From positions 1 through 29,411 of the IMG/VR virus record IMGVR_UViG_3300017917_000224: DNA of 29,411 bases; one strand, 5' to 3'. Source of the stretch: a virus. Of the stretch, positions 10,548 to 29,411 are shown piece by piece (within the stretch, counting starts at the first letter, position 1; each line of letters opens with the position of its first letter). A program made the position numbers and the translations under genes. Under the pieces are notes generated by a model. It made no database searches. It was not told where the DNA came from and saw only the letters and a list, made by a program, of their open reading frames with translations.

Positions 10548-10565
10548 TTGTTATTAGGACAGATC

Positions 10566-13500
10566 ATGAGTGTAACTACTAGACAAAACAGATTATTAAT
10601 TGCGGAAGATTGGAAAAAGATATATCAAAGTTTCCGCAACGCAGATTTCCAAAGCTACGACTTTGAAAATTTACGTCGCACAATGATCGATTATATCCGT
10701 CAAAACTATCCAGAAGACTACAACGATTACATTGAATCCAGCGAATACCTTGCCCTAATTGACCTTATTGCGTTCTTGGGCCAAAGCATAGCTTTCCGTG
10801 TCGATTTAAATGCTCGTGACAACTTCCTAGAATTAGCAGAGCGTAGAGAGAGTGTTCTAAGACTTGCAAGAATGCTTAGTTATAATCCTAAGAGAAATAT
10901 AGCGGCAACAGGTCTTTTAAAATTCACATCAGTAACAACAACAGAGAATGTCATCGATAGTAACGGACGAAATCTGTCCGGACAAATTATTACATGGAAT
11001 GATCCTAGCAACTCTAATTGGTACGACCAGTTTATAAAAGTAATAAATGCCGGATTCTCTAAGACACAACAATTTGGGAATCCGTCGGACAAGGCTACAA
11101 TTTACGGCATACCTACAGAACAGTATCGCTTCCAGAGCTTGGGAGAATCTGCACCAGTTTTTGGTTTTACAAAAACCGTTGCCGGCCGACCTATGTCTTT
11201 TGAAGTAGTAAGCACATCCTTTAGCGGACAGAGCTACATATATGAAGAACAGCCAAAATTAGGCAATAAGATCAGCTGTATATATAGAGACGATGGTCGC
11301 GGCCCAAGTTCTTCTAGTTCTGGTTTCTTTATGAAATTTGTTCAAGGCGAATTAAACACTGGAACGTTTACTATATCACAGCCTGGTACTAATGAATCTA
11401 TTGACATTGATGCACAAAATATTAATAATACCGACGTATGGTTATACAAGTTAGATAAAGATGGCAACGAAGATGTCTTGTGGACACCTGTTAGTAATTT
11501 CGAAGCAAACAACATTATCTATAACAGCGTCAATAAAAGTATTAGATCGATTTACTCTGTGATTACTAGAAATAACGATGCCGTAAGTTTACAGTTTAGT
11601 GATGGTACTTTTGGAGATCTTCCACTGGGAACATTCCGTGTTTATTACAGAATAAGCAACGCATTGGAATATACAATCAATACACAAGATATTCGTAATA
11701 TCAGTATATCATTTCCTTATATATCAAACACTGGACAGCAAGAGACTTTATCAGTCACGATGAACTTGGCCTCGAGTGTAAGTAATGCAACAGCAGCCGA
11801 AACTAACGAAGACATTAAGGCAAATGCTCCTGCTACTTACTATACACAGAATAGAATGATTACAGGGGAAGATTATAACATAACTCCTTTATCGTCTAGC
11901 TCTCAAATAGCTAAAGTTAAAGCAGTTAACAGAACTAGTTCGGGTATAAGTCGATATTTTGATTTATCAGATCCTACAGGAAAGTACAGTTCGACTATTT
12001 TATTTGCGAACGACGGGGTCGTTTATCGAGAAGAATTTAAATCTTCAAGTCGGTTTTCTTATCAAAACAAAACAGATATTGAGGGAATAATCTATAATCA
12101 AATATTTGATATTCTTAAAGATCCTAATCTTAAAAATTTTTACTACGCTAATTTTATTGTGTTTATTACTTCAAGTCTTGATATTATTTGGAATAATATA
12201 ACATCTGATAGTAACTTATCTACTGGTTATGTTAGTTCCGGAGATACAATATTTAAAGTCGGAACATTTACTTCTAACGATTTAAAATATTTAAGATCGG
12301 GGTGTTTAATAAAGTTCTCTGCTCCTGAAGGAAAATACTTTGATACAAAAAATTCTAATCGACTAGTTACGGGATCAGCTACAGTTGCTGGCGCCGAGAC
12401 AGTCTTATGGGCTGAAGCTATAACAGTTGAAGATGACGGCACCGCTGCCGGCACAGGTGTAAACTCTGACGGTTTTGGTCCTATAACATTAAACAGAATA
12501 ATTCCTCAAGGGTCGATTATTACACAAATAATTCCAAGGTGGAGAACAGTCATTGAGACTTCAACGATTGCAACAATGGTTGATTTGATTTTTTCAAATA
12601 AGCCATTTGGTCTAAGATATGATTCAGAAAACCAGCAATGGAAAATTGTCTTTGAGTTAAATCTTGATGCACGAAATAATTTTAGTTTAGGTAAGCAAGG
12701 CGACCAAACAAATCAAAGACAAGATGCTAGCTGGTTATTGTTGTTTACTACAGATAACGAGTATTATACAGTTACAGCTCGAATTCAAAGATATGTATTT
12801 GAAAGCGATAAGGAAATCAGATTCTATTTTGATTCCAGCAACAAAGTCTACGACAGTAAAAATAATGCAGTTATAAAAGATACAATTAAATTCCTTAGTG
12901 TTAATACTCAGCCGGAAAACACACTAGCATTTACTAATGATAAGGTCTGGGACATTGTTAGCGAATACATCGGATTAGATGGGTACGTAGATACTAAAAA
13001 AATTATTATAGCATTCGGAGATTCAGATGATAATGGTGTAGTAGATAATCCAGAAATGTTTAATGAATTAGTCATACCTGCATCTGGAAATATCTCTTTA
13101 CAAAACAAATATATTGTTTTAGAAAAATATATTATTAGTGCCGGACAAGAAGATTATCAATATGTTGATAACTCCTCTGGCCTAGTAACTATTTTAGGAA
13201 CAAAGCCTACTAGTTATTCAGTCTCTGATAACGGAAAATATTTTTATTTTGTAGACACAAATACAGTTTGTAAATTAGATGTAACTCTTTCAAATCCGTG
13301 GATCCCGACATTGGATTATAAAATTTATATCGGAAGAGACAATCTTAAATTTCAATATAATCATAATGCTGATTACGAATCAAGAATTGATCCGGGCGTA
13401 AGCAATATTATTGATATTTTTGTGTTAACCAAGTCGTACGATACTAGATTTAGACAGTGGATTAATGGATCTATAGTTAATAAACCACTTCCTCCTAGTT

Positions 13501-14030
13501 CTTTAGAATTATATGATTTAGTTTCTTCAAACTTAAATCTTGTTAAAGCTATTAGCGATGAGATTATTTTTCATCCGGTGAGTTATAAAGTCTTATTCGG
13601 ATCTTCTGCTACTGAGGATGTCCAGGCTAGTTTTAAAGTTATTAAAAATCCTAATCGTGTTGTGTCTGATAACGATATTAAAACTAGAGTAATCACTGCT
13701 ATCGAAGAATTCTTTACATTAGAAAATTGGGATTTTGGAGATACATTTTATTTTACAGAACTTTCAACCTACGTAATGAGTCAACTAAGCCCTGACATTT
13801 CTAGTTTTGTTATAGTACCTAGATTGGGTGGTTTAGGGTTTGGAAGTTTGTTCGAAATTAAATCTGCAAGCGATCAATTGTTTGTCAATGGTGCGACTGT
13901 TGACGATATTGAGATAATACAAGGTATAACTGCTACATCAATTAAATCGATTTCAGGCACTACTGTAGATTCAACAGTGTCAGAACAGCAAAATGTAACA
14001 AGTTCGAATTACGGAGCAAATAATGGCTGA
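10566..14030 (+). CDS. 6: gp6-like baseplate wedge protein, enlarged
   Basis: I start this gene at ATG 10566, with AGGA six bases upstream. An in-frame TTG at 10548 would lie inside the promoter region. The 1154 residues are far more than the 660 of T4 gp6. The N-terminal helical domain (about 8-110) has EDWKKIYQSF, FQSYDFENLRRTMIDYIR, YLALIDLIAFLGQSIAFR and LARMLSYNPKRN, typical of gp6 and of the J-like baseplate family. The C-terminal region (about 930-1130) has RIDPGVSNIIDIFVLT, IIFHPVSYKVLFG, NWDFGDTFYFTEL and GATVDDIEII, also family hallmarks. Between them lie beta-rich insertions, including an EF-hand-like loop at residues 819-830. In T4, gp6 forms the ring that joins wedges. The stop overlaps the next gene by eight bases. 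Confidence 0.92.
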   Translation: MSVTTRQNRLLIAEDWKKIYQSFRNADFQSYDFENLRRTMIDYIRQNYPEDYNDYIESSEYLALIDLIAFLGQSIAFRVDLNARDNFLELAERRESVLRLARMLSYNPKRNIAATGLLKFTSVTTTENVIDSNGRNLSGQIITWNDPSNSNWYDQFIKVINAGFSKTQQFGNPSDKATIYGIPTEQYRFQSLGESAPVFGFTKTVAGRPMSFEVVSTSFSGQSYIYEEQPKLGNKISCIYRDDGRGPSSSSSGFFMKFVQGELNTGTFTISQPGTNESIDIDAQNINNTDVWLYKLDKDGNEDVLWTPVSNFEANNIIYNSVNKSIRSIYSVITRNNDAVSLQFSDGTFGDLPLGTFRVYYRISNALEYTINTQDIRNISISFPYISNTGQQETLSVTMNLASSVSNATAAETNEDIKANAPATYYTQNRMITGEDYNITPLSSSSQIAKVKAVNRTSSGISRYFDLSDPTGKYSSTILFANDGVVYREEFKSSSRFSYQNKTDIEGIIYNQIFDILKDPNLKNFYYANFIVFITSSLDIIWNNITSDSNLSTGYVSSGDTIFKVGTFTSNDLKYLRSGCLIKFSAPEGKYFDTKNSNRLVTGSATVAGAETVLWAEAITVEDDGTAAGTGVNSDGFGPITLNRIIPQGSIITQIIPRWRTVIETSTIATMVDLIFSNKPFGLRYDSENQQWKIVFELNLDARNNFSLGKQGDQTNQRQDASWLLLFTTDNEYYTVTARIQRYVFESDKEIRFYFDSSNKVYDSKNNAVIKDTIKFLSVNTQPENTLAFTNDKVWDIVSEYIGLDGYVDTKKIIIAFGDSDDNGVVDNPEMFNELVIPASGNISLQNKYIVLEKYIISAGQEDYQYVDNSSGLVTILGTKPTSYSVSDNGKYFYFVDTNTVCKLDVTLSNPWIPTLDYKIYIGRDNLKFQYNHNADYESRIDPGVSNIIDIFVLTKSYDTRFRQWINGSIVNKPLPPSSLELYDLVSSNLNLVKAISDEIIFHPVSYKVLFGSSATEDVQASFKVIKNPNRVVSDNDIKTRVITAIEEFFTLENWDFGDTFYFTELSTYVMSQLSPDISSFVIVPRLGGLGFGSLFEIKSASDQLFVNGATVDDIEIIQGITATSIKSISGTTVDSTVSEQQNVTSSNYGANNG
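13020..13055 (+). other. EF-hand-like calcium loop within gp6 (residues 819-830)
   Basis: The 12-residue stretch DSDDNGVVDNPE has acidic or amide residues at EF positions 1, 3, 5, 9 and 12 and the invariant Gly at position 6. It is the canonical calcium loop pattern, also seen in dockerin and thrombospondin-type repeats. It sits between beta-rich segments of the wedge protein. Calcium binding is inferred from the residues only. Confidence 0.6.
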
Positions 14031-17000
14031 GAGTAAGAAAATAAAAAACTTAAAAACAACAGCAACTGATTTATTACCTCGTTATTTTAAAACAGATGCT
14101 AATAAAAAGTTTTTACAAGCCACTATAGATCAGTTAATACAACCGGGTACTGTTAAAAAAGTAAACGGTTATATCGGTCGCCAAAATGCAAAATCAGCCG
14201 TCGGCTCTGATATTTTTATTACTGCTTCGACAAAAGATAGACAAGATTACCAATTAGAACCAGCTCTTACAATTAAAGACTCTATCGGTAATAATGTATT
14301 TTTCAAAGATTATCAAGACTATATTAACCAATTGTCTGTATTCGGATCAAACACAAAAAATCATAATAGATTAAATCGCCAAGAATTTTATTCTTGGAAT
14401 CCGCATATCGACTGGGATAAATTTGTTAACTTTCAAAATTATTACTGGTTACCATATGGCCCAGATACTGTAAGAATATTTGGCCAACAAGAAAATATTA
14501 TAAGTTCATATAAAGTAGATTTACAATCCGAAACTGATAATAATGTTTACGTGTTCAGCCCAGACGGTGCTACACAAAATCCTACTTTAAAATTGTTTAG
14601 AGGACAAACTTATAGATTTGAAATTAACAGTCCAGGAAATCCATTTAGTATTAAGACTGCAAGATCTCCCGAATCGTTTGATCGATATATTAATCCTGGT
14701 GTAACTGGATATGCTGTAGAAAATGGCGTAATTGAAATTACTTTACCATATAATAGTCCGGATATTCTTTATTATGTGAGTGAAACAGATATCGATCTCG
14801 GCGGAGTTTTTCAAGTAGAATCTATCGAGGAAAATACAGTTTTAGATATTTCGACAGATATTTTAGGAAAGAAAGAATACGTATTATCAGACGGAACAAA
14901 ATTAAGCAATGGAATGAAAGTTTCATTTGTGGGCAATGTCAGTCCTGCTGAGTATTCTGTTGGACAATATTATGTAGAAGGTGTTGGTAGGTCTATCCGT
15001 CTTGTAAACGAAAAAGTTTTAGAACTAATTAGTACCTATACTAATCAACAATCTGTACCGTTTGATTCCGGAAAATTTGACAGCCAGCCTTGGGACGATG
15101 CTATTTCATTCGCTGGAAAATCCGATTACATTGTTGTTAACCGTGCTAGTACCGATAGGAATCCTTGGAGTCGATATAATCGTTGGTTCCATAAAGATGT
15201 CATTGAGAAAAGTGCAACTTATAACAATAAAGTAGCTTCTATAGATCAATCAGCTAGAGCAACTAGACCTATTATCGAGTTCGAACCAAATATTAAACTT
15301 TATAATTTTGGAACTAGAGCCCTCGGCGATGTAGATGTGATTGACGATTATACTGTTGATGTTTTTTCTATGGTAGAAGGCCAGCTAGGATATAACGTTG
15401 ACGGAATTCAACTAGCTCAAGGTCAGCGTGTGTTGTTTACTGCTGATACCGACAGACTAGTTAGGAACAGAATTTATAAGGTTGATTTTTTATTACTCGA
15501 TGGCGTACGAAAAATACATTTAGTAGAGCAAGAGCTACCAGTTACAAACGATCTAGTATTGATCCGCCAGGGGAATAAGAATAAAGGACAGATGTATTGG
15601 TATGATGGAGATCAATGGAATCTAGGTCAGCAAAAAACCTCAGTAAATCAATCTCCTATGTTCGATGTATTTGACGAAACTGGACATAGCTTTGGAGATA
15701 AAACTGTTTATGACGGATCGACATTTAAGGGAACTAAACTCTTTTCTTATAAGCAAGGAACAGGTGCTAACGACGCAACTTTAGGATTTCCATTGTCTTA
15801 TAAAAACATAACCAATATTGGGGATATTGTTTTTAATTTTAATTTAGCAACTGATAAGTTTCAATACAAAGATATAGTTGATATCAAAGATAAACAAATT
15901 AAAGTAGGTTATCTTTTTAATTATGAAGATACTGACGCTGGATATATTAACGGTTGGACTACAGCCCGTACATTTGATGTACAACCAGCAGTAAGAATTT
16001 ATAAAAATTCTAACAAATTTAATAATTTTAATATCGATATTTTTGATGATATCGATAGTTTAGGCGATCTTCGAGTTAAGGTATTTGTTAACGGATTGTT
16101 TGTACAACCTGCCGACTATACAATCTCAACGAGTGGTCGATATAAAACAATTATTTTAAATAATGACATTCTAGATTCAGACGTTTTAACAATCAAATGT
16201 TATTCTAACCAACCTATTAATGAAAATGGTTATTACGAAGTTCCTATAAATTTACAAAATAATCCATCTAATAACGATATAGGAGATTTTACTCTTGGAG
16301 AAGTTATTGATCATGTTGGATCTATTGTAGAAAATTTAGAAAATTTCGAAGGGCAGTTTCCAGGACCAAATAATCTAAGAGATTTAGGCGGTGTTTCTGA
16401 TCTCGGAACTAAGTTTGTTCAACACAGCGGCCCGATGAGCTTGGTCTTGTATCATGTAACATCCGATACAAATAACATTATCAGAGCCATTGAATCGTCT
16501 AGAGAAGACTATAATAAATTTAAAAGAAATTTTGTTTCAGTAGCAGAAAATCTTGGGATTGATACTGACCCGGTAGAGTTAGTAAATCTAATTTTACAAG
16601 AAATTAACAAAGATAAACCAAAGTCAAGTCCTTACTATTTTAGTGATATGATCCCATACGCTGGCGGAATCAAAACTGAACTAACAGTAATTGACTATAG
16701 AATAAAAACATATCCTTTAACAAATAATTTTAATTTAGATACATTATCAAATAAGGCAGTTATCGTTTATCTTAATGACAACCAACTACTGTATGAAAAA
16801 GATTATACATTTAGTGATCAGGGATTTGTTGTTATTTCTGCAGAATTGCAAAACGATGATAAAGTTACAATATGGGAATTTGAAAATACTAATGGATGCT
16901 GTGTTCCACCAACACCAACTAAGTTAGGTATTTGGCCAAAATATGAACCTAAAAAGATTTATGATACCACGTTGGTAAATCCACGGTGGATGATACAGGG

Positions 17001-20000
17001 CCACGACGGTAGCTTAATATTGGCCTACAATGATTACAGAGACGATTTAATATTAGAATTAGAAAAGAGAATTTTTAATAATATTAAAATTAAGTACGAT
17101 TCTAACATATTTGATGTACAAGATTTAATTCCGTCTTTTAATAAGAGTAATAGATATTCGCTGTCTGAATTTAATGAAGTCCTCTCAATAAGTTTTTACC
17201 AGTGGTCGGGACTTGTTAGTAAAGATTTTACTAAACCGCTTGGTTATTCTAGAGATAATAGTCTTACTTTTAACTATAAAGAATTACCGGCATTAGACGG
17301 TTCTTCGCCTCTTCCGGGATACTGGAGAGGTGTCTATCAGTGGATGCTAGGAACAGATAGGCCGAACCTTTGTCCTTGGGAAATGTTAGGTTTTTCTATA
17401 GAGCCAAGTTGGTGGCAAGAAGTATATGGTCCTGCTCCATATACTAGCGACAATTTAATAATGTGGGAAGACATAGCCGATGGGCTAGTAAAGCAACCTA
17501 ATTCACCAACGGTGTATTTAGAAAAATACAAGAGGCCATATCTAAAAGGAAGAATACCGGTAGATCAAGATGGAAATATTATTAGTCCATTAGATTCTGG
17601 TTTAGCTCTAGGACCGATCACAACTAGCACAGCTAACGATTTTGTATTCGGAGACCAAAGTCCTGTTGAGACTGCTTGGCGAAGAAGTAGTTATTATCCG
17701 TTCAGTGTAATGGTTGCATCAATGTTGTTGCAGCCAGCAACTACCTTAGGAACTCTTTTAGATAGGTCAAGAATTGTTAGAAATTTAGCAGGGCAGTTGA
17801 TTTATAAAGATACTGGAGTTAGAATTACAGCCAGCGACATTGTATTGCCTAGCATCTATTCTAGCACTTCTAATATTAAATCTTCTGGAATTATTAATTA
17901 CATTGTAGATTATATCCTTAGTGACAATTTAAGATCTTATACTGAGTATCAATATAATTTAAAAAATATTCAAGCTAAACTATCGTACAGAATAGGATCT
18001 TTTAGCAGTAAAGAAAAATTTAAGTTATTGTTAGATAGTAAAACACCTTTAAGTCAAAGTAGTGTATTTGTTCCTCAAGAAGATTATGAGATTATTCTAA
18101 ATTCGTCTAGTCCTATCAAGAAGATATCATATAGCGGAGTAGTTATTACGAAGGGTGCTGACGGTTTTTCAGTAAAAGGTTACAGTAAAACTCAACCATA
18201 CTTTAAATATTATCCAGCTACTAATCTTGGTTTACTAATAAACATCGGCGGCATATCTGAGGGATTTGTTGAATGGACTTCTCAGTCAACATATTCTTCT
18301 GGTAAAGTAATATTTTACAATAATAGATATTACAGGTCAAAAGTTTTACATACAACATCAGATACATTTGATTCTAAATATTATCAATTACTACCGTCTC
18401 TTCCTCTAATTGGTGGTCGAGATGCCTATATACGAACAGAATGGGATAGGACCGAGGAAATCGTAGTTCCATACGGAACTAGATTTAGAACAATTCAAGA
18501 AGTTGTTGATTTCCTTTTAGGATACGGCGAATATTTGAAAGATCAAGGATTTATTTTTGATGACTTTAATGCAGAATTAAATGCTATAACTAATTGGGAA
18601 ACTAGTGCTAAAGAATTTTTATTCTGGACTACACAAAACTGGAGCACCGGCGAAGACCAATGGGACGACTGGAAGCCAAATGAATTTGTACCTGTAGGTA
18701 GTGTTGTAAAGTACGCCGGCGATTATTATAAATCAGTAGTTACATCGGATCCTTCAGAAGTTTTTCAAGAAGATAACTTTGTTAAACTTGACGGACTAAG
18801 TGACATTGGAAGTGCTGTAATAAGCCTAAGTCCAGCCGCAATTAAATTAACTTTCGAAGCACCGTTAAGTGTAGTTGACGACATTCGTAATTCTTTTAAT
18901 GGTTACGAAATATTTAAAGTTGACGGAACACCGATACAACCTAATTTTTTAAATAATTATAGAGAAGATAATGCAGTAAGTTATACACCAACTGAAGACG
19001 GTATATATGGTGCAACTTTTTATCTCGTGCAAAAAGAACAAGTTGTTATTCTTAATAATTCAACTTTGTTCAACGATACAATTTATAATCCTGAAAGCGG
19101 ATATAGACAAGAAAAAATTAAAGTATCCGGGTATGTTAGTAGCGAATGGAACGGATCGTTCAACATTCCAGGATTTATCTTCGATCAAGCGAAGATCGAT
19201 GATTGGGAGTCATGGAAAGATTATGCGCTAGGCGACATTGTAAAATATAAGCAATTTTATTATTCTGCTTCTCGATTTATTCCTGGAGAGGAGTCGTTTG
19301 ATAATAACAAGTGGATTAAGTTAGATCAAAAACCTACTCCGCGATTATTACCTAACTGGACATATAAAGCCGAGCAGTTTACAGATTTTTATAGTTTAGA
19401 TAGCGACAATTTTGACGGAGATCAGCAGGCAGTAGCACAACATTTAGTTGGATATCAAAAGCGTCAATATCTAAGTAATATTATTAAAGACGACGTTAGC
19501 GAATTTAAATTTTATCAAGGAATGATAGTTGAAAAAGGAACACAAAATGTTCTTAACAAACTATTTGATGTTCTGAGCGCCGATGATAAAGAAAGCGTTG
19601 ATTTTTATGAAGAATGGGCATTACGTACCGGGCAGTACGGTGCAAGCCAGGCATTTGAAAACATCGAATTTATAATTGATGAATCTGATGTAAAAAATAA
19701 TCCGCAAGGATACGAGCTAGTTAATCAAATTGACACATCATTGGTTGACTTTATAGTAAGACAGACTCCTAATGAAGTGTATCTTAAGCCAGTAGGATAC
19801 AGCAATAGTCCGTGGCCTGTTGCAGAAGATAAGCCGTCATTTTTAAGAACACCGGGATATGTAAGACCTAGCGATGTTAAGTATTCATTTGTGTCGCTCG
19901 ATCAAGTAATTAATACTGATATTACTGATTATGTTGAAGGTGATTATGTTTGGGTCGGATTTGAAGGCAGAGAATGGAATGTATATAGATACAGTCGACT

Positions 20001-23000
20001 AGAACAAACAGTTATCGATGCTGCCTATTCTACTAATGACAAGTTATTAACATTGGTCTTAGACAAGAACACTTCAGTACGCATAGGTGATATCATCGGA
20101 ATAGATCAAGTATCTACCTTTCCAGGATTTTATAAAGTTGTTGATATAGACTTAAAGAAAATTATTTTATCAGCACCGTCTATTACTAATTTTAGAACAC
20201 CGTTTACTGAACAAAATAAGATAGTAGTTTCAACATTTTATTCTTATAGGGTAAAAAATGTTGTTAATGATAACGGGTCAATTGACTATGCTATAGATAG
20301 GGCAGACCAAGTACTAAAGACTGCACCAAACAACGGTGAACTACTTTGGATTGACGACAACGGAAATAATAAATGGATGACATGGCAGTATAATCCAATT
20401 TACTCTTTAGATGAAATTATTAATACTGCTCCGCAAGAAGGTCTTTCATACGGAAGAAGAATTGTATTAAATCCTGGCGCTAATATTACTGCTATTTCTA
20501 ATGACCTTGGCGAAGTAATTATATATGATAAAGCCGGACCAGTTGCACCGTGGCTACAAAGACAAACAATAACTGTTCCATTTATATCTAAGAATACTGG
20601 TTTCGATGATAATGCTACGCCTGCGAGTTTAACCGGTGATGTTATAGCTATCTCCGGAGACAGTAGGTGGTTAGCAACTGGAACACCGTTGGCAAATAAT
20701 GTGTCTTCTAGATTGAAATATGTAGGAGGTTCTCCTCTGTGGTCTTCAGTGACAAGCTATGCTGTAGGCGATATAGTAATTTATAATTCTAAACCTTACC
20801 AAGCACAGTTTATTGTTGGCCTTCCTGCAAATTTAAATAAGAATCCAGAAACTCAAACAAATTTCTGGAAGGAAATTTCTTATATTCCAGTTGGTGAAGA
20901 TTCTTTATCAACAAACTCTAATTTAACAAAACAAGGTGTTGTTTCGATATACGAAAAAGATGCGAATAATATCTTTACGTTAGTTGCTACGATTGTTAGC
21001 CCGCATCCGTTGAATAATGAAAAATTTGGATCAAGTCTTGCATTCGGTAGCGATACTTTATTAGTCGGTTCCGAAGGATTCCAGAACGACACAGGTAAAG
21101 TTTATAGATTAACCTATAAGACAACTATCGAAGCCACTACAAACTATAACCCAGTTGGTAGTTCTGGACAGACATTAGTTGTGTCAAGTACTGCAAATAT
21201 ACGAGCAGGTATGCATGTGCTAGGAAATGGTTTCACTACACAATATGTAGCACAGGTAGTTAATTCTACAACATTAATATTAAATGCTCCCCCTGATTCA
21301 GATCCAAGTACAATATTATCATTTACTGTAACCGGTTGGAGATACGATACTAGTATAGTAGTCGGCGAGCCATTGCAGTCTGGAAGTAGGTTTGGTACAT
21401 CTACTATAGTAAGTAAAGATAATTCAACGCTTTTAGTTTCTGCACCAGGCGGCGTCTATGATAATAATAGTGAAAATTTATCAGTCGAAGGTGACGAATT
21501 AATTAAGATACCCGGAAAAGTTTTCGTCTATAAGTTAGCTTCTGGGCAATATTCTCTTTATACTGTTCTAACTAACGGATCACCAGATTACGGTACTTCA
21601 ATTACAGTTTCTAACACTGGGCAATATATTGCAGTTTCTTCTATTTTTGATGATAAAGAAACGATAGATCAAGGAACAGTTATTGTCTACAAGGACAACG
21701 GCACTGGTTATTCTCAATATCAGGAGTTATACAATCTTGATCCCGAAACTGCTGAATTCTTCGGCTCAAAAATATCTTTTATGAATGATTATGATACATT
21801 AGTTGTTTATAGCGAAGGTTCAGACACTAAAACAACAATGACGATCGATTTAGGATCAACAACATTTGATAATAACTTGACAAAAATTGTTGATGTCGCT
21901 GAGGATAGCGGTCGAATCGATGTATATGACAGGTATGGTAGCAAATGGATATTCAGTGAGAGCCTAGTAAATGGACAAGATATTTCTACAGGATATAGTA
22001 CAGGTTTAGCTGTAGGATCTGACGTTATCTTAGTCGGAGCACCATATGCCCTTGACCAAGGACTTAGCTCTGGTAGAGTACACGAATATAGAAAACCAAT
22101 AGGGAAATTTAGTTGGTCAGTCTTGCATCAAGAAACAGATAGAATTGATTTATCAAAGATTAAACGAGCATTCTTATACGATCGAAACACTAATAAATTA
22201 GTATCTTATCTTGATGTCATTGATTCTACACAAGGCAGAATTCCAGGCCTTGCTGACCAAGAAATTAGATATAAAACTTTTTACGATCCTGCAATTTATT
22301 CAGTTGGAAACTCTACAGTAAAAATTGACGAAGGAATGGCTTGGGGTAAAGCACAAGTAGGAACTCTCTGGTGGGATTTAAGAACTGCTAAATTTTACGA
22401 CAGTCAAGATAATGATCTAGTATATAGGAATAGTACTTGGAATACATTGTTCCCGGGAGCAAGCGTTGATATCTACGAATGGGTAGAAACAACATTAACA
22501 CCTTCTCAGTGGAATAGCAGAGCAGATACAGACGAAGGGCTAATAACAGGTGTTAGCGGCACTACTCTTTATGGTAACGATGTTTATGGTTTAATTAAAA
22601 AATATGATTCTGTCGCTAAAACATTTAAGAACACTTATTATTATTGGGTTAAGAATAAGAAAACTATTCCAAATGTTAACTTTAGAAAAATCCCTGCTAA
22701 TGATGTAGCAGAATTAATTTCTAACCCTAGGGGGTATGGTTACAAATATCTTGCATTAACAAGTCCTAATTCGTTTAGTCTTGTTAACGTTAAGCCTTTG
22801 CTTCAGGATTCAAATATTGTTTTATCCGTTGAATACTGGACCGGGAATTACGATAATAAAAACATTCATAACGAATGGAAAATTATTAGTAACAATCCAA
22901 ATTCTTCGATTCCTCGTTTCATTGAAAACAAATGGTTTGACAGTTTATGCGGTAAAGACGAGGCAGGTCGACTAGTCCCAGATACTACACTACCTCCAAA

Positions 23001-26000
23001 AATAAAATACGGCATAGAATTTAGACCAAGACAGGGAATGTTTGTTAATAGATTTGAAGCATTAAAACAGTTTATCGAACAAATAAATCTTGTTCTAATT
23101 AATAATCTGATCGTAGAGAGATCTGATTTATCAAGCATAGAACAATTTGAAAAAGAACCTTCGGAGATATCGGGTCTGTACGATTCGGCAATTGATTCTG
23201 AAGAAGAATTACGATTTACGAATATTGGAACATACGAAAAGGCAGTACTAAAACCGATTATTAATGATGGAAGAATAACAGGAATTGATATTGTACAAAG
23301 AGGTAGAGGATATTTAATTGCTCCTTATTTGACAATTAGCGGTACTGGCACCGGTGCAGTAGTTCGATCAGTCCTTGATACTCGAGGGAGAATTACCGGA
23401 GTTGAAATTATTTCTCAAGGAGAAGGATACTCTGATCAAACAACAGTTATAGTTAGAAATTATTCTATACTAGTACACAGTGATAGTACAGCGTACGGTA
23501 ATTGGAGCATATACTCATATGAGCCTCTATCTTTAACTTGGTCAAGAGTACAAACACAATCGTATGACGTAAGAAATTATTGGTCATATGTGGATTGGTA
23601 TGCTCCGGGCTACAATCAATTTACTGCTATCGATTTTTCTGTAAGCTCCTTTGTAGACCTAAATAATTTAAAGACAGATATTGATCAAATAGTTAAGATT
23701 AGAACTACTAATAACGGAACTTGGTTGTTATTAAGAAAGTATGCCGAGTCAACATCAGTTGACTGGACACAGAGCTATGAAGTAATTGGTAGCGAAAAAG
23801 GAACAATACAGTTTAATTCTAATTTGTATAGCTTCTCAAATACACAATATGGTTTCGATGCTTCGCTTTATGACTCATCGATATTTGATAATTCTGCTTC
23901 GATAGAATTGCGAATTATTTTAAATGCAATTAAGAACAATATTCTTACAGACGACCTAAAACAATCATATCTTGATTTATTCTTTAATAGCGTAAGATAT
24001 GTATTAAGCGAACAGAACTATGTAGATTGGATATTTAAAACTAGTTTCGTTAAAGCTAAACACTCAGTCGGCGAATTAAAACAAAAAGTCACATACAATA
24101 ATGACAATCTTGAAAACTTTGAAGATTTTATCAACGAAGTTAAGCCATATAGAACTAAGATAAGAGAATTTATTAGTTCATACGACAAAGTTGATAATTC
24201 TTTATTGTCAACAACTGATTTTGATTTACCAGCGGTATTTGAAGATGGTGCAATAACTCCGATAGATGTAGTCGTTAGAAACGGTATAGTACAAACTAAT
24301 TCCAACAAATTATTAGAATATCCATGGAAGCATTGGTACGATAATTTAGGATATAATATCACGTCAATAGTTGTTTCGTCGCAAGGCGCTGGATATGTAA
24401 GTGAACCTGTTGTAAGAATAATCAGCAATTCCGGATCCGGCGCTCGTGCCAGAGCGTTTATAACTAACGGAAAAGTTACAAGAATATCTTTAATTAATCG
24501 TGGTTCAGGATATCTTGATGCTCCTGTAATCGTCCTCGAGGGAGGTCTTGGTACAACTGGAGTACAGGCTAGGGCCGTGGCTATTATAGGTGACGGCGTT
24601 ATTAGAAATAATCACATCGGAATAAAGTTTGACAGACTAACACAACGTTATTTTATTACAAGTTTGCAAGAAACTGAAACTTATTCTGGTAGTGTTGCAG
24701 TTTCTGGTTCTAGACTACAGTTTCCTCTAAAGTGGGCACCTGATATTGTTAATACATTTGCTAATAATGTTAAACTTGGAATCGAAACCGTTACAATAAA
24801 TGATGTAGAAGTATTAAAATCAGATTATAAATTATCAACTGTTAAATCTACATCCAGAGGTTATACAAGTTATAGTGGTCTATTAACATTTGACGTTGCA
24901 CCTGCAAGAGGATCTACAGTTAAAATTAACTATACTAAAGATTGGTCAGTCCTTAATGCGGCTGACAGAATTCAATATTATTATGATCCAGCAGCCGGAG
25001 AGCTCGGTAAAGAGCTAGGACAGCTAATGACCGGAGTCGATTACGGTGGTGTCAACGTTACCGGACTATCATTTGAAGTTGGTCAGGGATGGGATAGTGT
25101 ACCGTATTATACAGACAAATGGGATAGCTCAGACACTACATTTAGCGATTATATTGTAACTGTTGCTGCCAATACACATAGCTTCACCCTGCCATATGTT
25201 CCTCCTAACGGAACAGAAATGAACGTTTATTATTCTAGTAAGAATATTGAAACTTATCCCGGTGACGGATTCACAAAAATTTATAATTTTAACATTTTAA
25301 ATATCTATCCGCCAACAGTTAGAGTAGAAACTACAGTTGAATTTGATGATACAGCTACTACTAATGTTGAAGGTAGCAATACAATTACCTTAGTAAGTGT
25401 TAATAACATCCAAGTCGGTGACATAGTAACAATAATTCCAGATGTTGAGAAAACTATTGGTTTAGACACTAAGGTAATAGAAGTCAATACTATTAACAAA
25501 ACAGTTAAGCTAGATCAAATATTGTTTAAAGACATCGAAACAGGAACTTCTGCTGTGTTTACAAGAACGCTAGTAGATCCTATAGATTGTACTATAAATT
25601 CTAATGGAACAGTATTTTTAAATGATGCAGTCCCAACAGGTAGTAATATTGTTATAACAGCATTTTTTGATCCTGTTCGATTAGACGATCCTTATTATAA
25701 TAGCAAAACATCGGCTCAAGAAACATTAGCCGATGCTCAAGAAGTATTAACTACGAAAACTAATGAATATTATACATTAGTAAACAGTGAAGTAGATTTA
25801 CAGGAACAACTTGAATCTCTTACTGACGAAATTTATCAACTACAAACGGAATTAAATGCATTAAATGTCATTATCGATGGACTTGATCCAAGCAATCCTC
25901 TATACATTGAATCAGTTAACCGTATAAATGATTTAGTGAATACAGAAATTCCTGCGGTACAAGATCAAATAGATTCAGTAAGTAATGATTTATCAAATCT

Positions 26001-28740
26001 TGATCAAGATATTGCAGATAAGTTAGCTGAAAAGAATCATGCACAGATAGAAGTAAACATCGCTCAAGATACATACGACTCTATTCCAGTGTTGTTGAAT
26101 TCTACAGCTATCATGCAAACTATTATATCTGATGGAATACCTGATGATTTAGTTAATCCTACATATAAAACTTTTAGTATTCCATCAACATTTACAGTAC
26201 TCGACGGCGACAGATTTATATGGCGCAAGAGTACTAGCGACGGATCAATCGTTCCACAAGATACTGATTATGATACTGCTCTAAGCGGTGGAAATTTAGC
26301 ATATTCAACTGCTACAGGATTAGCTGCCGATGATATCTTAGTTGATGGCGACGGATTTGTTACTCCTACATCGAGCCCTGCTCCTGAAGAAGTAGTTCCG
26401 GGACAAATTGTCGATGCTGTTGCGATTAAAGTCTACGATAGGCCAAGCGCCGGTTCGGCAAATATTAAAGTAGATAGCTATATCGCCGATGGAGTAACGA
26501 AAGAATTTGCTGTTAGCCAACAACCAAATAGTCCTTCGGCATTAATTGTTAAATTTACCACCGGTGAACGAGATGAAATTACCGACGAGCTGGTTTCTGT
26601 TTCATCGATTAAATCTCTAGGAGAAGATTTCACTTTCGATTATTCTAATAGATTAGTAACTTTAAACGAAGCACCTCCTGAAGGAACGCTAGTTTCTATT
26701 TTTAGTTTTGAATTTAACGGTTCTAAGATATTAGACATTAACTATTTTATCGGAGACGGTGTTCAGACCGAGTTTGTTACTAATGCTCCATATGTAGATA
26801 ATATAACATATCAAGTATATGTTGATGGACAACCAGCACAACCTGGTAATCCTGCATTGTTCGAAACAGATTTATCTTATGAGTCACCAGGTAGAGTTGG
26901 TCTTTATTTTAGTGTACCTCCAGCGAACGGATCTCTAGTAAATTTCATTCTCATTAGCGGTAATGAAAGAACATATTCGATTGCCACAACTGAAAAGTTT
27001 CCAGGTAATGGCGGATCGTTATACGATTTGTACTATGTAGTAGGTGATATTGTTCCTGTTGAATCAAGTATGCTTGTTCGCGTAAATCAAAGAATCTTAA
27101 AAGCACCTAACAGCAGTTATTACACTATTGAGCCTGGGATTGTAGAATATTTTATCGATCCTGCAAAATATTTGCCTTATAGCATTTCTACAGATGACAT
27201 TGTTGTATTAGCTGATAGTCAAGTATTAAATGGTGGTGTTGATTATACTGTTGAATTAAGTAATATTAGTATTGTCTTAAATGAATATGTAGCACAAAAC
27301 TACGTAGGAAAAAAATTAATTATCGCAGTACGTCGAGATCAAGAGTACACTTACGTACCTCCGACTGAGACAGAAGGGCCAAAAATACAATTTATAGAGA
27401 ATTTTGATCCTTCGGATAGTATTGAAGTTATTAGTTTTTATAAACATGACATCCTAGACATCCAGAGATCGAGAATTCGAATATCTTCTAATTTATCGTT
27501 GACTCCTGATACTCCTGAATACTATGAATACAGAGGACTAACAGGCGGCCTAATACAATTAGATCGATCAGTTCTTGATGAAAGTTATGTTTGGGTAGTT
27601 AAAAATGCTAGTCTTTTAACACCGAGTGTTGATTACAAATTAAACAAGGATAGACACAGTATTAAATTAGCTTTACCTGCAAAGATCGATGACGACTTTA
27701 CTGTTATTACGTTTAGTAGTAATGTTTTAACGTCGGGTGTGTCTTATATGCAGTTTAAGGATATGCTTAACAGAGTTCATTTTAAGAGATTAAACGCAGA
27801 TAAGAGAACTCGTTTAGTAAAACCACTATCTTATACAGATACTACAATTGAAGTGGAAGATGCAAGTAATTTTGATTTACCAAGCACAGCAAATAACAAA
27901 CCTGGCGTAGTTGAAATCAGAGGTGAAAGAATTGAATATTTTAGTATCAGCGGAAACGTATTAGGACAGTTACGTCGAGGAACGCTTGGTACTGGAGTTC
28001 CATCACTGCATCCAGTTAACAGTTACGTTCAGGATATAGGAGCTAGCGAAACACTACCTTATGTTGAAAGTTCAGTAATTGATCAAGTTAAAGCTGACGG
28101 CACAGAAAATGTAGGTTTATCATTCGTTCCTGGAAACTTTGACACTTCTTGGAGATATCAGGGTAGAGCCATGACAGCACAAGAAGCAACAGGCCTTGCT
28201 AAAAGCTCCATTGAAGCATTCGTTGGTGGATATAGTTCAGTTCCGTGGCAGTCAGGAGTATCTTATAAAGTCGACGATGTTGTTGAGGTTGGAACTTATA
28301 CATATAAATGCGTTTTAGCACATACAAGTTCGGATAATTTTAAATCTGATTCGACTAAGTGGTCTTTCTTTGTTGGAAATATAAGACTGAAGAAAGACAG
28401 TTATTCGGTTCATAGTGTTGCAATTCATCCAGAAAGTCCCGAAGGCGATGTTGTATTAGACGCTGACTTTACAGTTGATAATCAAACAGCAAATTTAACA
28501 TTAACTAACAACTTAAAACTTGGTACTAGGGTTACTGTTGTAAAAAGAACAGGAACCGACTGGGATTCTGTAACTAGTATTTTAGATGAAGATAATAAGA
28601 TTTCGAGATTCCTAAAAGCGGCGCCTGTAGTATGGTATGCAACTATAGGTAAATATGACAGTACTTTAGGTGATCCGAATACATTTGATAGAGATGATGG
28701 AACATTTGATAGTACATCGATCACGTTTGATCAAGGATAA
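14023..28740 (+). CDS. Giant modular virion protein in the gp7 position (4905 residues)
   Basis: One uninterrupted frame encodes 4905 residues, nearly five times T4 gp7 (1032), at the place of gene 7 after gp6. GGAG lies six bases before its ATG, which overlaps the gp6 stop by eight bases. The N-terminus (LPRYFKTDANKKFLQATIDQ, then NGYIGRQ and WNPHIDWDKFVNFQNYYW) is a type I associate with baseplate-linked proteins of marine T4-like phages. Landmarks in order: cupredoxin-like fold (186-266), CPWEMLGF...PSWWQEVYGPAPYT (1117-1141), CBM-like units (1418, 1547, 1728, 2240, 4742), an FG-GAP-like propeller (2205-2703), GSGY repeats (3089-3146, 3448-3525), QNYVDWIF...KPYRTKIREF (3331-3383), GDG modules (3745, 4153, 4241, 4326), a coiled coil (3894-4020) and an ERIEYF module (4594-4680). 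No signal peptide or protease is seen. The likely role is baseplate periphery and host contact; identity with gp7 is unproven. Confidence 0.8.
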   Translation: MAESKKIKNLKTTATDLLPRYFKTDANKKFLQATIDQLIQPGTVKKVNGYIGRQNAKSAVGSDIFITASTKDRQDYQLEPALTIKDSIGNNVFFKDYQDYINQLSVFGSNTKNHNRLNRQEFYSWNPHIDWDKFVNFQNYYWLPYGPDTVRIFGQQENIISSYKVDLQSETDNNVYVFSPDGATQNPTLKLFRGQTYRFEINSPGNPFSIKTARSPESFDRYINPGVTGYAVENGVIEITLPYNSPDILYYVSETDIDLGGVFQVESIEENTVLDISTDILGKKEYVLSDGTKLSNGMKVSFVGNVSPAEYSVGQYYVEGVGRSIRLVNEKVLELISTYTNQQSVPFDSGKFDSQPWDDAISFAGKSDYIVVNRASTDRNPWSRYNRWFHKDVIEKSATYNNKVASIDQSARATRPIIEFEPNIKLYNFGTRALGDVDVIDDYTVDVFSMVEGQLGYNVDGIQLAQGQRVLFTADTDRLVRNRIYKVDFLLLDGVRKIHLVEQELPVTNDLVLIRQGNKNKGQMYWYDGDQWNLGQQKTSVNQSPMFDVFDETGHSFGDKTVYDGSTFKGTKLFSYKQGTGANDATLGFPLSYKNITNIGDIVFNFNLATDKFQYKDIVDIKDKQIKVGYLFNYEDTDAGYINGWTTARTFDVQPAVRIYKNSNKFNNFNIDIFDDIDSLGDLRVKVFVNGLFVQPADYTISTSGRYKTIILNNDILDSDVLTIKCYSNQPINENGYYEVPINLQNNPSNNDIGDFTLGEVIDHVGSIVENLENFEGQFPGPNNLRDLGGVSDLGTKFVQHSGPMSLVLYHVTSDTNNIIRAIESSREDYNKFKRNFVSVAENLGIDTDPVELVNLILQEINKDKPKSSPYYFSDMIPYAGGIKTELTVIDYRIKTYPLTNNFNLDTLSNKAVIVYLNDNQLLYEKDYTFSDQGFVVISAELQNDDKVTIWEFENTNGCCVPPTPTKLGIWPKYEPKKIYDTTLVNPRWMIQGHDGSLILAYNDYRDDLILELEKRIFNNIKIKYDSNIFDVQDLIPSFNKSNRYSLSEFNEVLSISFYQWSGLVSKDFTKPLGYSRDNSLTFNYKELPALDGSSPLPGYWRGVYQWMLGTDRPNLCPWEMLGFSIEPSWWQEVYGPAPYTSDNLIMWEDIADGLVKQPNSPTVYLEKYKRPYLKGRIPVDQDGNIISPLDSGLALGPITTSTANDFVFGDQSPVETAWRRSSYYPFSVMVASMLLQPATTLGTLLDRSRIVRNLAGQLIYKDTGVRITASDIVLPSIYSSTSNIKSSGIINYIVDYILSDNLRSYTEYQYNLKNIQAKLSYRIGSFSSKEKFKLLLDSKTPLSQSSVFVPQEDYEIILNSSSPIKKISYSGVVITKGADGFSVKGYSKTQPYFKYYPATNLGLLINIGGISEGFVEWTSQSTYSSGKVIFYNNRYYRSKVLHTTSDTFDSKYYQLLPSLPLIGGRDAYIRTEWDRTEEIVVPYGTRFRTIQEVVDFLLGYGEYLKDQGFIFDDFNAELNAITNWETSAKEFLFWTTQNWSTGEDQWDDWKPNEFVPVGSVVKYAGDYYKSVVTSDPSEVFQEDNFVKLDGLSDIGSAVISLSPAAIKLTFEAPLSVVDDIRNSFNGYEIFKVDGTPIQPNFLNNYREDNAVSYTPTEDGIYGATFYLVQKEQVVILNNSTLFNDTIYNPESGYRQEKIKVSGYVSSEWNGSFNIPGFIFDQAKIDDWESWKDYALGDIVKYKQFYYSASRFIPGEESFDNNKWIKLDQKPTPRLLPNWTYKAEQFTDFYSLDSDNFDGDQQAVAQHLVGYQKRQYLSNIIKDDVSEFKFYQGMIVEKGTQNVLNKLFDVLSADDKESVDFYEEWALRTGQYGASQAFENIEFIIDESDVKNNPQGYELVNQIDTSLVDFIVRQTPNEVYLKPVGYSNSPWPVAEDKPSFLRTPGYVRPSDVKYSFVSLDQVINTDITDYVEGDYVWVGFEGREWNVYRYSRLEQTVIDAAYSTNDKLLTLVLDKNTSVRIGDIIGIDQVSTFPGFYKVVDIDLKKIILSAPSITNFRTPFTEQNKIVVSTFYSYRVKNVVNDNGSIDYAIDRADQVLKTAPNNGELLWIDDNGNNKWMTWQYNPIYSLDEIINTAPQEGLSYGRRIVLNPGANITAISNDLGEVIIYDKAGPVAPWLQRQTITVPFISKNTGFDDNATPASLTGDVIAISGDSRWLATGTPLANNVSSRLKYVGGSPLWSSVTSYAVGDIVIYNSKPYQAQFIVGLPANLNKNPETQTNFWKEISYIPVGEDSLSTNSNLTKQGVVSIYEKDANNIFTLVATIVSPHPLNNEKFGSSLAFGSDTLLVGSEGFQNDTGKVYRLTYKTTIEATTNYNPVGSSGQTLVVSSTANIRAGMHVLGNGFTTQYVAQVVNSTTLILNAPPDSDPSTILSFTVTGWRYDTSIVVGEPLQSGSRFGTSTIVSKDNSTLLVSAPGGVYDNNSENLSVEGDELIKIPGKVFVYKLASGQYSLYTVLTNGSPDYGTSITVSNTGQYIAVSSIFDDKETIDQGTVIVYKDNGTGYSQYQELYNLDPETAEFFGSKISFMNDYDTLVVYSEGSDTKTTMTIDLGSTTFDNNLTKIVDVAEDSGRIDVYDRYGSKWIFSESLVNGQDISTGYSTGLAVGSDVILVGAPYALDQGLSSGRVHEYRKPIGKFSWSVLHQETDRIDLSKIKRAFLYDRNTNKLVSYLDVIDSTQGRIPGLADQEIRYKTFYDPAIYSVGNSTVKIDEGMAWGKAQVGTLWWDLRTAKFYDSQDNDLVYRNSTWNTLFPGASVDIYEWVETTLTPSQWNSRADTDEGLITGVSGTTLYGNDVYGLIKKYDSVAKTFKNTYYYWVKNKKTIPNVNFRKIPANDVAELISNPRGYGYKYLALTSPNSFSLVNVKPLLQDSNIVLSVEYWTGNYDNKNIHNEWKIISNNPNSSIPRFIENKWFDSLCGKDEAGRLVPDTTLPPKIKYGIEFRPRQGMFVNRFEALKQFIEQINLVLINNLIVERSDLSSIEQFEKEPSEISGLYDSAIDSEEELRFTNIGTYEKAVLKPIINDGRITGIDIVQRGRGYLIAPYLTISGTGTGAVVRSVLDTRGRITGVEIISQGEGYSDQTTVIVRNYSILVHSDSTAYGNWSIYSYEPLSLTWSRVQTQSYDVRNYWSYVDWYAPGYNQFTAIDFSVSSFVDLNNLKTDIDQIVKIRTTNNGTWLLLRKYAESTSVDWTQSYEVIGSEKGTIQFNSNLYSFSNTQYGFDASLYDSSIFDNSASIELRIILNAIKNNILTDDLKQSYLDLFFNSVRYVLSEQNYVDWIFKTSFVKAKHSVGELKQKVTYNNDNLENFEDFINEVKPYRTKIREFISSYDKVDNSLLSTTDFDLPAVFEDGAITPIDVVVRNGIVQTNSNKLLEYPWKHWYDNLGYNITSIVVSSQGAGYVSEPVVRIISNSGSGARARAFITNGKVTRISLINRGSGYLDAPVIVLEGGLGTTGVQARAVAIIGDGVIRNNHIGIKFDRLTQRYFITSLQETETYSGSVAVSGSRLQFPLKWAPDIVNTFANNVKLGIETVTINDVEVLKSDYKLSTVKSTSRGYTSYSGLLTFDVAPARGSTVKINYTKDWSVLNAADRIQYYYDPAAGELGKELGQLMTGVDYGGVNVTGLSFEVGQGWDSVPYYTDKWDSSDTTFSDYIVTVAANTHSFTLPYVPPNGTEMNVYYSSKNIETYPGDGFTKIYNFNILNIYPPTVRVETTVEFDDTATTNVEGSNTITLVSVNNIQVGDIVTIIPDVEKTIGLDTKVIEVNTINKTVKLDQILFKDIETGTSAVFTRTLVDPIDCTINSNGTVFLNDAVPTGSNIVITAFFDPVRLDDPYYNSKTSAQETLADAQEVLTTKTNEYYTLVNSEVDLQEQLESLTDEIYQLQTELNALNVIIDGLDPSNPLYIESVNRINDLVNTEIPAVQDQIDSVSNDLSNLDQDIADKLAEKNHAQIEVNIAQDTYDSIPVLLNSTAIMQTIISDGIPDDLVNPTYKTFSIPSTFTVLDGDRFIWRKSTSDGSIVPQDTDYDTALSGGNLAYSTATGLAADDILVDGDGFVTPTSSPAPEEVVPGQIVDAVAIKVYDRPSAGSANIKVDSYIADGVTKEFAVSQQPNSPSALIVKFTTGERDEITDELVSVSSIKSLGEDFTFDYSNRLVTLNEAPPEGTLVSIFSFEFNGSKILDINYFIGDGVQTEFVTNAPYVDNITYQVYVDGQPAQPGNPALFETDLSYESPGRVGLYFSVPPANGSLVNFILISGNERTYSIATTEKFPGNGGSLYDLYYVVGDIVPVESSMLVRVNQRILKAPNSSYYTIEPGIVEYFIDPAKYLPYSISTDDIVVLADSQVLNGGVDYTVELSNISIVLNEYVAQNYVGKKLIIAVRRDQEYTYVPPTETEGPKIQFIENFDPSDSIEVISFYKHDILDIQRSRIRISSNLSLTPDTPEYYEYRGLTGGLIQLDRSVLDESYVWVVKNASLLTPSVDYKLNKDRHSIKLALPAKIDDDFTVITFSSNVLTSGVSYMQFKDMLNRVHFKRLNADKRTRLVKPLSYTDTTIEVEDASNFDLPSTANNKPGVVEIRGERIEYFSISGNVLGQLRRGTLGTGVPSLHPVNSYVQDIGASETLPYVESSVIDQVKADGTENVGLSFVPGNFDTSWRYQGRAMTAQEATGLAKSSIEAFVGGYSSVPWQSGVSYKVDDVVEVGTYTYKCVLAHTSSDNFKSDSTKWSFFVGNIRLKKDSYSVHSVAIHPESPEGDVVLDADFTVDNQTANLTLTNNLKLGTRVTVVKRTGTDWDSVTSILDEDNKISRFLKAAPVVWYATIGKYDSTLGDPNTFDRDDGTFDSTSITFDQG
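14578..14820 (+). other. Cupredoxin-like domain without copper ligands (residues 186-266)
   Basis: The segment runs NPTLKLFRGQTYRFEI, then PGNPFSIKTA, GVIEITLPY and PDILYYVSET, ending DLGGVFQVE. This follows the plastocyanin-like pattern often found in phage proteins (RGxTYxF, GHPFxI, PxxLYYxCxxHxxMGG). The His after PG is Asn here, and the Cys/His/Met ligand loop is replaced by VSETDIDLGG, so it should not bind copper. The fold assignment is inference. Confidence 0.5.
18274..18396 (+). repeat. CBM5/12-like module, copy 1 (residues 1418-1458)
   Basis: The pattern is W, then TYSSGKVIFYNNRYYRS, then an aspartate/phenylalanine-rich turn and YYQLLP. This fits the Wx(4-5)YxxGxxVxYxxxxY signature of the short three-stranded chitin-binding-type modules (CBM families 5/12). 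Sugar binding is inferred. Confidence 0.55.
18661..18795 (+). repeat. CBM5/12-like module, copy 2 (residues 1547-1591)
   Basis: WDDWKPNEFVPVGSVVKY is followed by AGDYYKSV, an acidic turn and NFVKLDG. It has the same tryptophan, G-x-x-V-x-Y and YY spacing as copy 1, 129 residues upstream, and shares the closing hydrophobic strand. Confidence 0.55.
19204..19329 (+). repeat. CBM5/12-like module, copy 3 (residues 1728-1769)
   Basis: WESWKDYALGDIVKYKQFYY is followed by SASRFIPGEESFDNNKWIKL. This copy keeps the G-D-x-V-x-Y core and the terminal Trp typical of the family. It also resembles copy 2 at its start (WxxW) and end (KLD). Confidence 0.6.
20740..20880 (+). repeat. CBM5/12-like module, copy 4 (residues 2240-2286), inside the propeller region
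   Basis: WSSVTSYAVGDIVIYNSKPY is followed by QAQFIVGLPANLNKNPE and a terminal FWKEIS. It is the closest of the five to the family pattern, including the asparagine/proline-rich loop before the last Trp. It sits between the first two propeller strands, as an insertion in a blade. Confidence 0.62.
21157..21330 (+). other. Small beta-domain inserted in the propeller (residues 2379-2436)
   Basis: The segment contains SSGQTLVVSSTANIRAGMHV, then GNGFTTQYVAQVVNSTTLIL and NAPPDS. This GTTLxVxSxxxIxxGMxVxGxG...TxLxLxxxP module recurs in many phage structural proteins. Here it separates two blades, which are 122 residues apart instead of about 60-80. Confidence 0.5.
23287..23460 (+). repeat. GSGY beta-repeat pair 1 (residues 3089-3146)
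   Basis: Two half-repeats, VQRGRGYLIAPYLTI...GTGTGAVVRSV and GVEIISQGEGYSDQTTVIV, follow the scheme V..GxGY..aP.v.i..GxGA.a.a.v. The same unit occurs again at 24367. The function is unknown; this is probably a stacked beta-structure. Confidence 0.6.
24367..24597 (+). repeat. GSGY beta-repeat pair 2 (residues 3449-3525)
   Basis: SSQGAGYVSEPVVRI with SGSGARARAF, then INRGSGYLDAPVIV with a GVQARAVAI ending, repeat the pattern of pair 1. The two pairs flank a helical segment with QNYVDWIF and KPYRTKIREF (residues 3331-3383). Confidence 0.6.
25702..26082 (+). other. Long coiled coil in the giant protein (residues 3894-4020)
   Basis: About 125 residues rich in Glu, Gln, Asp, Lys, Ala and Leu show heptad-like spacing, for example DLQEQLESLTDEIYQLQTEL and NDLSNLDQDIADKLAEK. 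A short break with Pro (GLDPSNPLY) divides it into two arms, so it may form a hairpin. It is the only long coil in an otherwise beta-rich protein. Confidence 0.75.
26479..27354 (+). repeat. Tandem GDG-type beta-modules (residues 4153-4444)
   Basis: Three successive units of about 85-120 residues begin YIADGVTKEF (4153), YFIGDGVQTEF (4241) and FPGNGGSLYDLYY (4326). They continue with VxVxxxxQ-type strands and an AxPxxGxLVxxxxF-like end. A fourth copy, YPGDGFTKIYNF, is at residue 3745, before the coiled coil. Such units are common in phage fibre and baseplate proteins. Confidence 0.55.
27802..28062 (+). other. ERIEY-type phage structural module (residues 4594-4680)
   Basis: KRTRLVKPLSYTDTTIEVED is followed by FDLPSTANNKPGVVEIRGERIEY, read in two blocks, then GNVLGQLRRGTLGTG and a histidine before NSYVQDIG. 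I recognise this PGxxxIxGERIxY...LRRGxxGT pattern from large marine phage structural proteins. No function is assigned to it. Confidence 0.6.
28246..28377 (+). repeat. CBM5/12-like module, copy 5 (residues 4742-4785)
   Basis: WQSGVSYKVDDVVEVGTYTY is followed by KCVLAHTSSDNFKSDSTKW. It retains Trp, Tyr and the closing Trp, but D replaces the usual glycine before the valine strand. It lies about 2450 residues after copy 4, close to the C-terminus. Confidence 0.55.
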
Positions 28741-28743: not shown

Positions 28744-29411
28744 ATGGCAAAGCAAACAATAAATTTTGGAACCACGATAAACGACGGCACAGGCGACACG
28801 TTAAGAGCCGGCGCTCAGAAAATCAACGCTAATTTTACTGAATTATATGATGCATTTTCTGCAGACGGGACATTAAGTGTTGTTTCAGGAGTTGTTGCAG
28901 GAAACGGTATATCAGTTAGTAATCCATATGGTTCAGTTACTGTTAACGCATTGCCTGCATCAGAAACACAGGCAGGTGTAATCAAAGTAGGTAGCGGACT
29001 AACTATCACTGATGGAATATTATCAGCTACAGCCTACTCCCTGCCAAAGGCTGCATCTAATATATTAGGTGGCATCAAAGTCGGTGATAATCTAACGATT
29101 AATAATGAGGGTGTACTAAGTGCAGTCGCTACTCCTTATACCTTACCAACTGCTAGCCCAACAACTAAGGGCGGAATTAAAGTTGGAGACGGGCTAGAGA
29201 TTGTTGATGGAGTTTTAAAGGTGGCAAGCATTGGAATAGCATCTGCTCTAGAATCCGGAAATGCTATTCTAACTTATAGCGAAGTAGAGGGATTAACTCA
29301 CAGTATTTTGCAATCAGATTTTGGTGTTTCGTTGTTTACTACCGGAGAAATTAATTATACTAGTTTAGGGTGGACAGATGGAACAGAGATAGTTAATCAA
29401 GTAACTGTCAC
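28744..29411 (+). CDS. Tail-fibre-like virion protein, 3' part beyond window edge
   Basis: I translated this frame by hand: 222 codons from ATG 28744 run open to the end of the window. AAGGA lies six bases before the ATG, three bases after the giant gene's stop. The N-terminal motif GDTLRAGAQKINANFTELYD (residues 19-38) is widespread in virion proteins of T4-like marine phages and probably anchors the protein to the baseplate. It is followed by three degenerate repeats of about 31-34 residues: GVIKVGSGLTITDGILSATA, GGIKVGDNLTINNEGVLSAV and GGIKVGDGLEIVDGVLKVAS. Such glycine-rich, strand-turn repeats are typical of trimeric fibre shafts. In T4 this map position holds gp8 to gp12, so a wedge-tip or short-fibre role is plausible. 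The receptor-binding C-terminus is not in the window. Confidence 0.75.
   Translation, partial: MAKQTINFGTTINDGTGDTLRAGAQKINANFTELYDAFSADGTLSVVSGVVAGNGISVSNPYGSVTVNALPASETQAGVIKVGSGLTITDGILSATAYSLPKAASNILGGIKVGDNLTINNEGVLSAVATPYTLPTASPTTKGGIKVGDGLEIVDGVLKVASIGIASALESGNAILTYSEVEGLTHSILQSDFGVSLFTTGEINYTSLGWTDGTEIVNQVTV
28975..29226 (+). repeat. Three fibre-type repeats in the last gene
   Basis: Units begin at 28975, 29068 and 29170 with G(V/G)IKVG(S/D)xL and end with (I/V)L(S/K)(A/V). The DNA copies differ at many positions, so the repeats are old rather than recent duplications. Confidence 0.7.

Follow-up and report, generated by a model that had tools for sequence, protein, structure and literature searches.

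A giant protein encoded at the gp7 position in T4-related phages as a probable single-chain arm of the baseplate wedge

We propose a model for the 4905-residue protein encoded in a 29,411-base IMG/VR virus record (IMGVR_UViG_3300017917_000224, the whole of which is called the window here), in which it is likely to form a single-chain arm of the baseplate wedge in a T4-related myovirus (jumbo-type). The arm would combine a conserved scaffold with variable modules that probably face outward. Translated directly after gp6, the giant would join the inner wedge of gp25, gp53 and gp6 via its conserved parts, residues 1-1950 and ~2640-3750 forming the scaffold. The modules that lie between these parts or beyond them (an FG-GAP propeller, CBM5/12-like modules and a coiled coil) are variable and would reach outward; near the periphery they would anchor the gp9/10-type fibres, and before the sheath contracts they may contact surface glycans. 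As a wedge arm, the giant would be expected in six copies per particle. Its genomic position points to membership of the wedge and to occupancy of the place of gp7, while the type of its modules suggests glycan contact and signal transmission; the giant is probably the arm that links the tail tip to the parts that contact the host.

Reading frame and locus

The giant gene runs from an ATG through 4905 codons without interruption, and its product has a computed mass of 549.7 kDa (~550 kDa). At the base composition of the window the log10 probability of meeting no stop is about -170, so that chance alone could not realistically produce such a long open frame. A second, independent contig (L003) aligns to the window at 99.27% identity with 0 gaps over 25,389 bp, and the two copies of the giant gene differ at 68 bases, distributed 7/5/56 over codon positions 1/2/3, with only 9 nonsynonymous codons. 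In the two pairs of giants compared by 500-codon blocks (L048/L074, and the window with L010, which differ in 35% of amino acids), substitutions are fewest at the second position and most frequent at the third in each block, so that a single frame is under purifying selection along its full length. The giant gene is a single unbroken coding sequence constrained at the protein level and not an assembly fusion, as the earlier note had judged by eye when it described an uninterrupted frame and excluded a fusion artefact. That assembly or annotation merged several genes has a negligible probability, given the independent contigs, 58 full-length copies, the uniform excess of third-position changes and the masses of homologues in virions; nothing was found in its favor, and we reject that reading for the frame.

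The gene belongs to a tail operon in the order gp53, unnamed virion protein, gp5, gp25, gp6, giant and gp9/10-N:

6097-6399, + strand: gp53-like wedge protein
from 6401, + strand operon: unnamed virion protein, between gp53 and gp5
8605-10071, + strand: gp5-like hub/spike protein with an OB domain (Pfam match just below the cut-off)
10075-10518, + strand: gp25-like baseplate wedge protein
10548-14030, + strand: gp6-like baseplate wedge protein, 1160 residues (PHROG 10646, 219), overlapping the start of the giant
14023-28740, + strand: giant virion/baseplate protein, 4905 residues, PHROG 10938 member
28744-29409, + strand: fibre-like protein with gp9/10-type N-terminal domain, cut by the window end

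This gene order argues for the wedge arm, as does the recurrence of its neighbours: gp6 lies immediately upstream of the giant in each of the 56 copies open to this check, and 31 of 53 have a gp9/10-N gene after it. The copy of this gp10-like gene in L003 encodes 667 residues from its ATG. In a 259-kb record (L025) the gene after the giant encodes 1019 residues, the C-terminal part of which resembles a tail-collar fibre by eye. Salicola phage SCTP-2 (MF360958.1) differs from the other relatives checked, with the giant at ~136 kb on the minus strand and gp6 at ~231 kb on the plus strand, about 90 kb apart, so that adjacency to gp6 is not essential.

PA5oct also keeps the wider gene order, its gp46/gp47/gp55-like genes lying on the other strand. 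By matching that order, the minus-strand genes at 1386-5006 of the window, divergent from the tail operon, are named as gp46/gp47-like recombination genes and a gp55-like late sigma factor. Adjoining the recombination genes is a DUF6071 protein at 381-1157 on the minus strand (PF19547, E 5e-14), and a partial minus-strand frame at 1-384, cut by the window end, is GIY-YIG endonuclease-like by eye (VGFVYIITNLISGRRYIGKK). A search of the record with PF06841 gave no match, and its control gave no signal either.

A widespread family present in virions

The giant matches PHROG 10938 (3324 aa, 'virion structural protein', assigned to the category 'head and packaging') at E=0 and 1111 bits in five stretches, and six of its ten 500-residue slices match at E<=0.01, which places it within that family. 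The members, among them PA5oct gp355, Atu_ph07 gp180, 121Q gp582/phAPEC6 gp245 and proteins of RaK2, GAP32 and CBB, are homologous to the window protein over its conserved parts and are encoded directly after gp6. The N-terminal 1159 residues are 26-31% identical to those of PA5oct and Atu_ph07; overall the window giant is ~1050-1580 residues longer than its PA5oct and 121Q counterparts, and the 121Q protein is missing several segments, among them the cupredoxin-like stretch (143-274).

The earlier note had held that giants of this size are rare in phages of this type, which is contradicted by a whole PHROG family and by its relatives. Scanning IMG/VR with the whole protein returned at least 151 related stretches, of which 79 loci were kept, and the full-length giants number 58 (52 distinct, 3336-6444 aa), a count that takes in the window, PA5oct, Atu_ph07 and 121Q. 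The N-terminal 1159 residues match 67 phage-collection records, including PA5oct gp355 (3857 aa), Atu_ph07 gp180 (4449 aa) and 121Q gp582 (3323 aa), the weakest of these matches having the cupredoxin-like domain alone in common. Rarity is further contradicted at the equivalent locus of Syn9, where a 6076-residue product (gp101) is encoded between gp6 and a gp9/10-like gene; the PHROGs for cyanophage giants include ones of 6136, 4179 and 3231 positions. The giant is a fresh member of a known, widespread and mostly 'hypothetical' protein family of T4-related jumbo-type phages. Its largest relative in the set (L053, 6444 aa) carries most of its large inserts in the FG-GAP region, at residues ~2138-3630. 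Some relatives (L224-L231) lie on contigs binned in metagenome-assembled genomes of Neomarinimicrobiota, Endomicrobia, Pelagibacter, Rickettsiales, Porticoccaceae, Betaproteobacteria and Puniceicoccaceae, which may be hosts or binning errors.

Syn9 gp101 and the other cyanophage giants (PHROG 701, 2885, 4406) share the gp6-gp9/10 locus, the size class and a GxGY module (HHalign probability 98%) with the window giant, but no match was found for their N-terminal parts, and matches to the Syn9-type giants (PHROG 701/2885) are confined to repeat-type and small modules.

The description of the giant as a virion protein gains support from two relatives. PA5oct gp355 is flagged in its record as found by ESI-MS/MS, and the phAPEC6 virion table lists gp245 (381.88 kDa, 17 unique peptides, 7.6% coverage) beside the wedge protein gp244 of 131.18 kDa (PMC7247149). 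According to that paper phAPEC6 and 121Q belong to a single species (PMC7247149), and the 121Q pair gp582/gp583 computes to 381.87 and 131.21 kDa, an agreement that places the giant family in particles, as an intact or, at this peptide coverage, perhaps a cleaved chain. Virion detection thus refers to PA5oct and phAPEC6, the window giant being known from its gene; the presence of relatives in virions, and of gp245 beside wedge gp244, is consistent with a wedge arm.

Conserved parts and variable modules

An alignment of 48 giants divides the protein into residues 1-1950 and ~2626-3750, which are conserved with few indels, residues ~1951-2625 and ~3750-4050, which are variable, and residues 4051-4905, which are intermediate. 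Insertions in the family cluster near residues 2250-2500 and 3750-3800, and residues ~3895-4020 are missing in many members. The alternation of conserved parts with variable modules is a further point in favor of a scaffolded wedge arm. The features, all on the + strand, are as follows:

14023-19872, +: most conserved part, residues 1-1950, few indels in the family
14482-14835, +: cupredoxin-like fold, residues 154-271 (Z ~11 to copper proteins)
18271-18357, +: CBM5/12-like module, residues 1417-1445, below the Pfam cut-off
18661-18792, +: CBM5/12-like motif, residues 1547-1590, by pattern only
19204-19266, +: CBM5/12-like module, residues 1728-1748, below the Pfam cut-off
20590-22122, +: probable FG-GAP beta-propeller, residues ~2190-2700 (FG-GAP_2 matches)
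20740-20802, +: CBM5/12-like module, residues 2240-2260 (E 2.5e-4, below the Pfam cut-off)
21940-25302, +: second conserved part, residues 2640-3760 (model pLDDT 69, pTM 0.41)
23233-23451, +: G-x-G-Y repeat module, residues 3071-3143
24355-24612, +: G-x-G-Y repeat modules, residues 3445-3530
24664-24942, +: small phage adaptor-type beta domain, residues 3548-3640, by structural match
25711-26016, +: probable coiled coil, residues 3897-3998 (weak Pfam coiled-coil matches)
28246-28338, +: CBM5/12 module, residues 4742-4772, above the Pfam cut-off

The modularity claimed in the earlier note stands, although its count of at least seven kinds of module falls to about six that are documented by tools. 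The AlphaFold model of residues 1-1150 has pLDDT 75 and pTM 0.55. The cupredoxin-like domain aligns over 97 residues at rmsd 2.2 (Z 11.3), and the overlapping residues 157-265 match part of PHROG 677, a family of gp9/10-like connectors. Residues 154-271 of the window giant contain no His or Cys copper ligands and hence no type-1 copper site, and a copper-binding identity is rejected for this domain. One CBM5/12 module lies above the Pfam cut-off and about four are weaker. The FG-GAP_2 matches at residues 2319-2361 and 2662-2687 are just above the cut-off, and part of the region gives a weak match to an integrin propeller; it belongs to the most variable, insertion-prone region of the family. 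The GxGY module at 3071-3143 is common to cyanophage giants (PHROG 2885, 701) and cyanophage gp8 (PHROG 438), and residues 3548-3640 resemble the DT57C neck protein (Z 7.4), CBA120 TSP4 (Z 7.3) and T4 baseplate chain 5iv5_B (Z 5.1). The coiled-coil stretch is absent from many relatives. Pfam matches to HJURP_C, eIF3h_C and ISAV_HA were weak, below the cut-off, and were set aside.

Relation to gp7, gp8 and gp10, and the proposed role

By position the giant occupies the place of gp7, as the earlier note had claimed: it lies between gp6 and a gp9/10-like gene, and this is well supported. It follows gp6 as T4 gp7 does (1032 aa, PHROG 964), but is nearly five times longer and has no detected match to gp7 in sequence or fold. 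HHalign of five segments of the giant against T4 gp6, gp7, gp8, gp9 and gp10 profiles gave no match, with a weak positive control (the window gp6 reached a probability of only 12% against T4 gp6). In Foldseek/VIA searches with moderate-confidence multi-domain models, where the cupredoxin-like domain and a single small adaptor domain accounted for most entries, the gp7 fold was not among the listed matches. A short T4 gp7 motif (731-774) is detectable in the Syn9 giant; none was detected in the window protein. Counted against the wedge arm are this lack of a gp7 match, the lack of a family-member structure (a PDB sequence search with the giant gave no match, and none was found), the 'head and packaging' label of the PHROG and the separation of giant and gp6 in SCTP-2. 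In its favor, PHROG 964 has no match at E<=1 in the complete genomes of PA5oct and Atu_ph07 or in the 121Q record, in a search that recovered T4 at full score, the Syn9 giant stands at the same place, and T4 gp7 is reported to be absent from cyano- and pelagimyophages, apparently substituted by VrlC (PMC7029224).

An alternative that we regard as unlikely is that the giant serves mainly as a device for host recognition at the periphery, as a very large fibre or adhesin attached to the baseplate and not as a wedge component. The CBM5/12-like modules, FG-GAP propeller, coiled coil and GxGY repeats would suit such a device, similar modules occur in cyanophage fibre proteins, and Syn9 gp101 is annotated 'putative fiber'. 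However, the longest parts of the giant are highly conserved with few indels, unlike typical adhesins, its coupling to gp6 is strict, and separate fibre-type genes follow it.

The earlier note had also suggested that the giant replaces gp8 and gp10. For gp10 this is not supported, since PF07880, the gp9/10-type N-terminal domain, has no match within the giant and is present in the next gene, directly downstream at 28744. A further alternative, that a single chain stands in for both gp7 and gp8 and possibly for additional wedge parts, also appears improbable. It is favored by the lack of any match to PHROG 977 (gp8) in the contigs of eight relatives, PA5oct or Atu_ph07, and of any match to PHROG 438 (cyanophage gp8) in PA5oct; in Atu_ph07 only the GxGY stretch of PHROG 438 (positions 185-273) finds a match, which lies within the giant, and no gp8-like protein was matched. 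Against this, a diverged gp8 could escape, as PHROG 977 matches even the recognised gp8 of Syn9 weakly (E 3e-11), the eight contigs may be fragments and hold other partial PHROG 438 matches, and Syn9 retains gp8 alongside its own giant, so that the two can coexist. PHROG 438 signals from relatives were not taken as gp8: most fall on the GxGY stretch that giants share, and the rest are partial and lie in other large frames. It is more doubtful still that one ~550-kDa chain has taken on what gp7 and gp8 do in the wedge and also carries its own glycan-sensing propeller and CBM modules; if true, receptor contact would in this lineage be relayed to the contraction trigger inside one polypeptide.

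The reading as a wedge arm places an abundant and mostly 'hypothetical' giant at the gp7 position of the baseplate across a large and diverse set of phages, and tells a conserved scaffold apart from variable, probably surface-exposed modules. Cultured relatives, 121Q and PA5oct among them, then offer a way to test what the giant does in assembling the wedge and in contacting the host.
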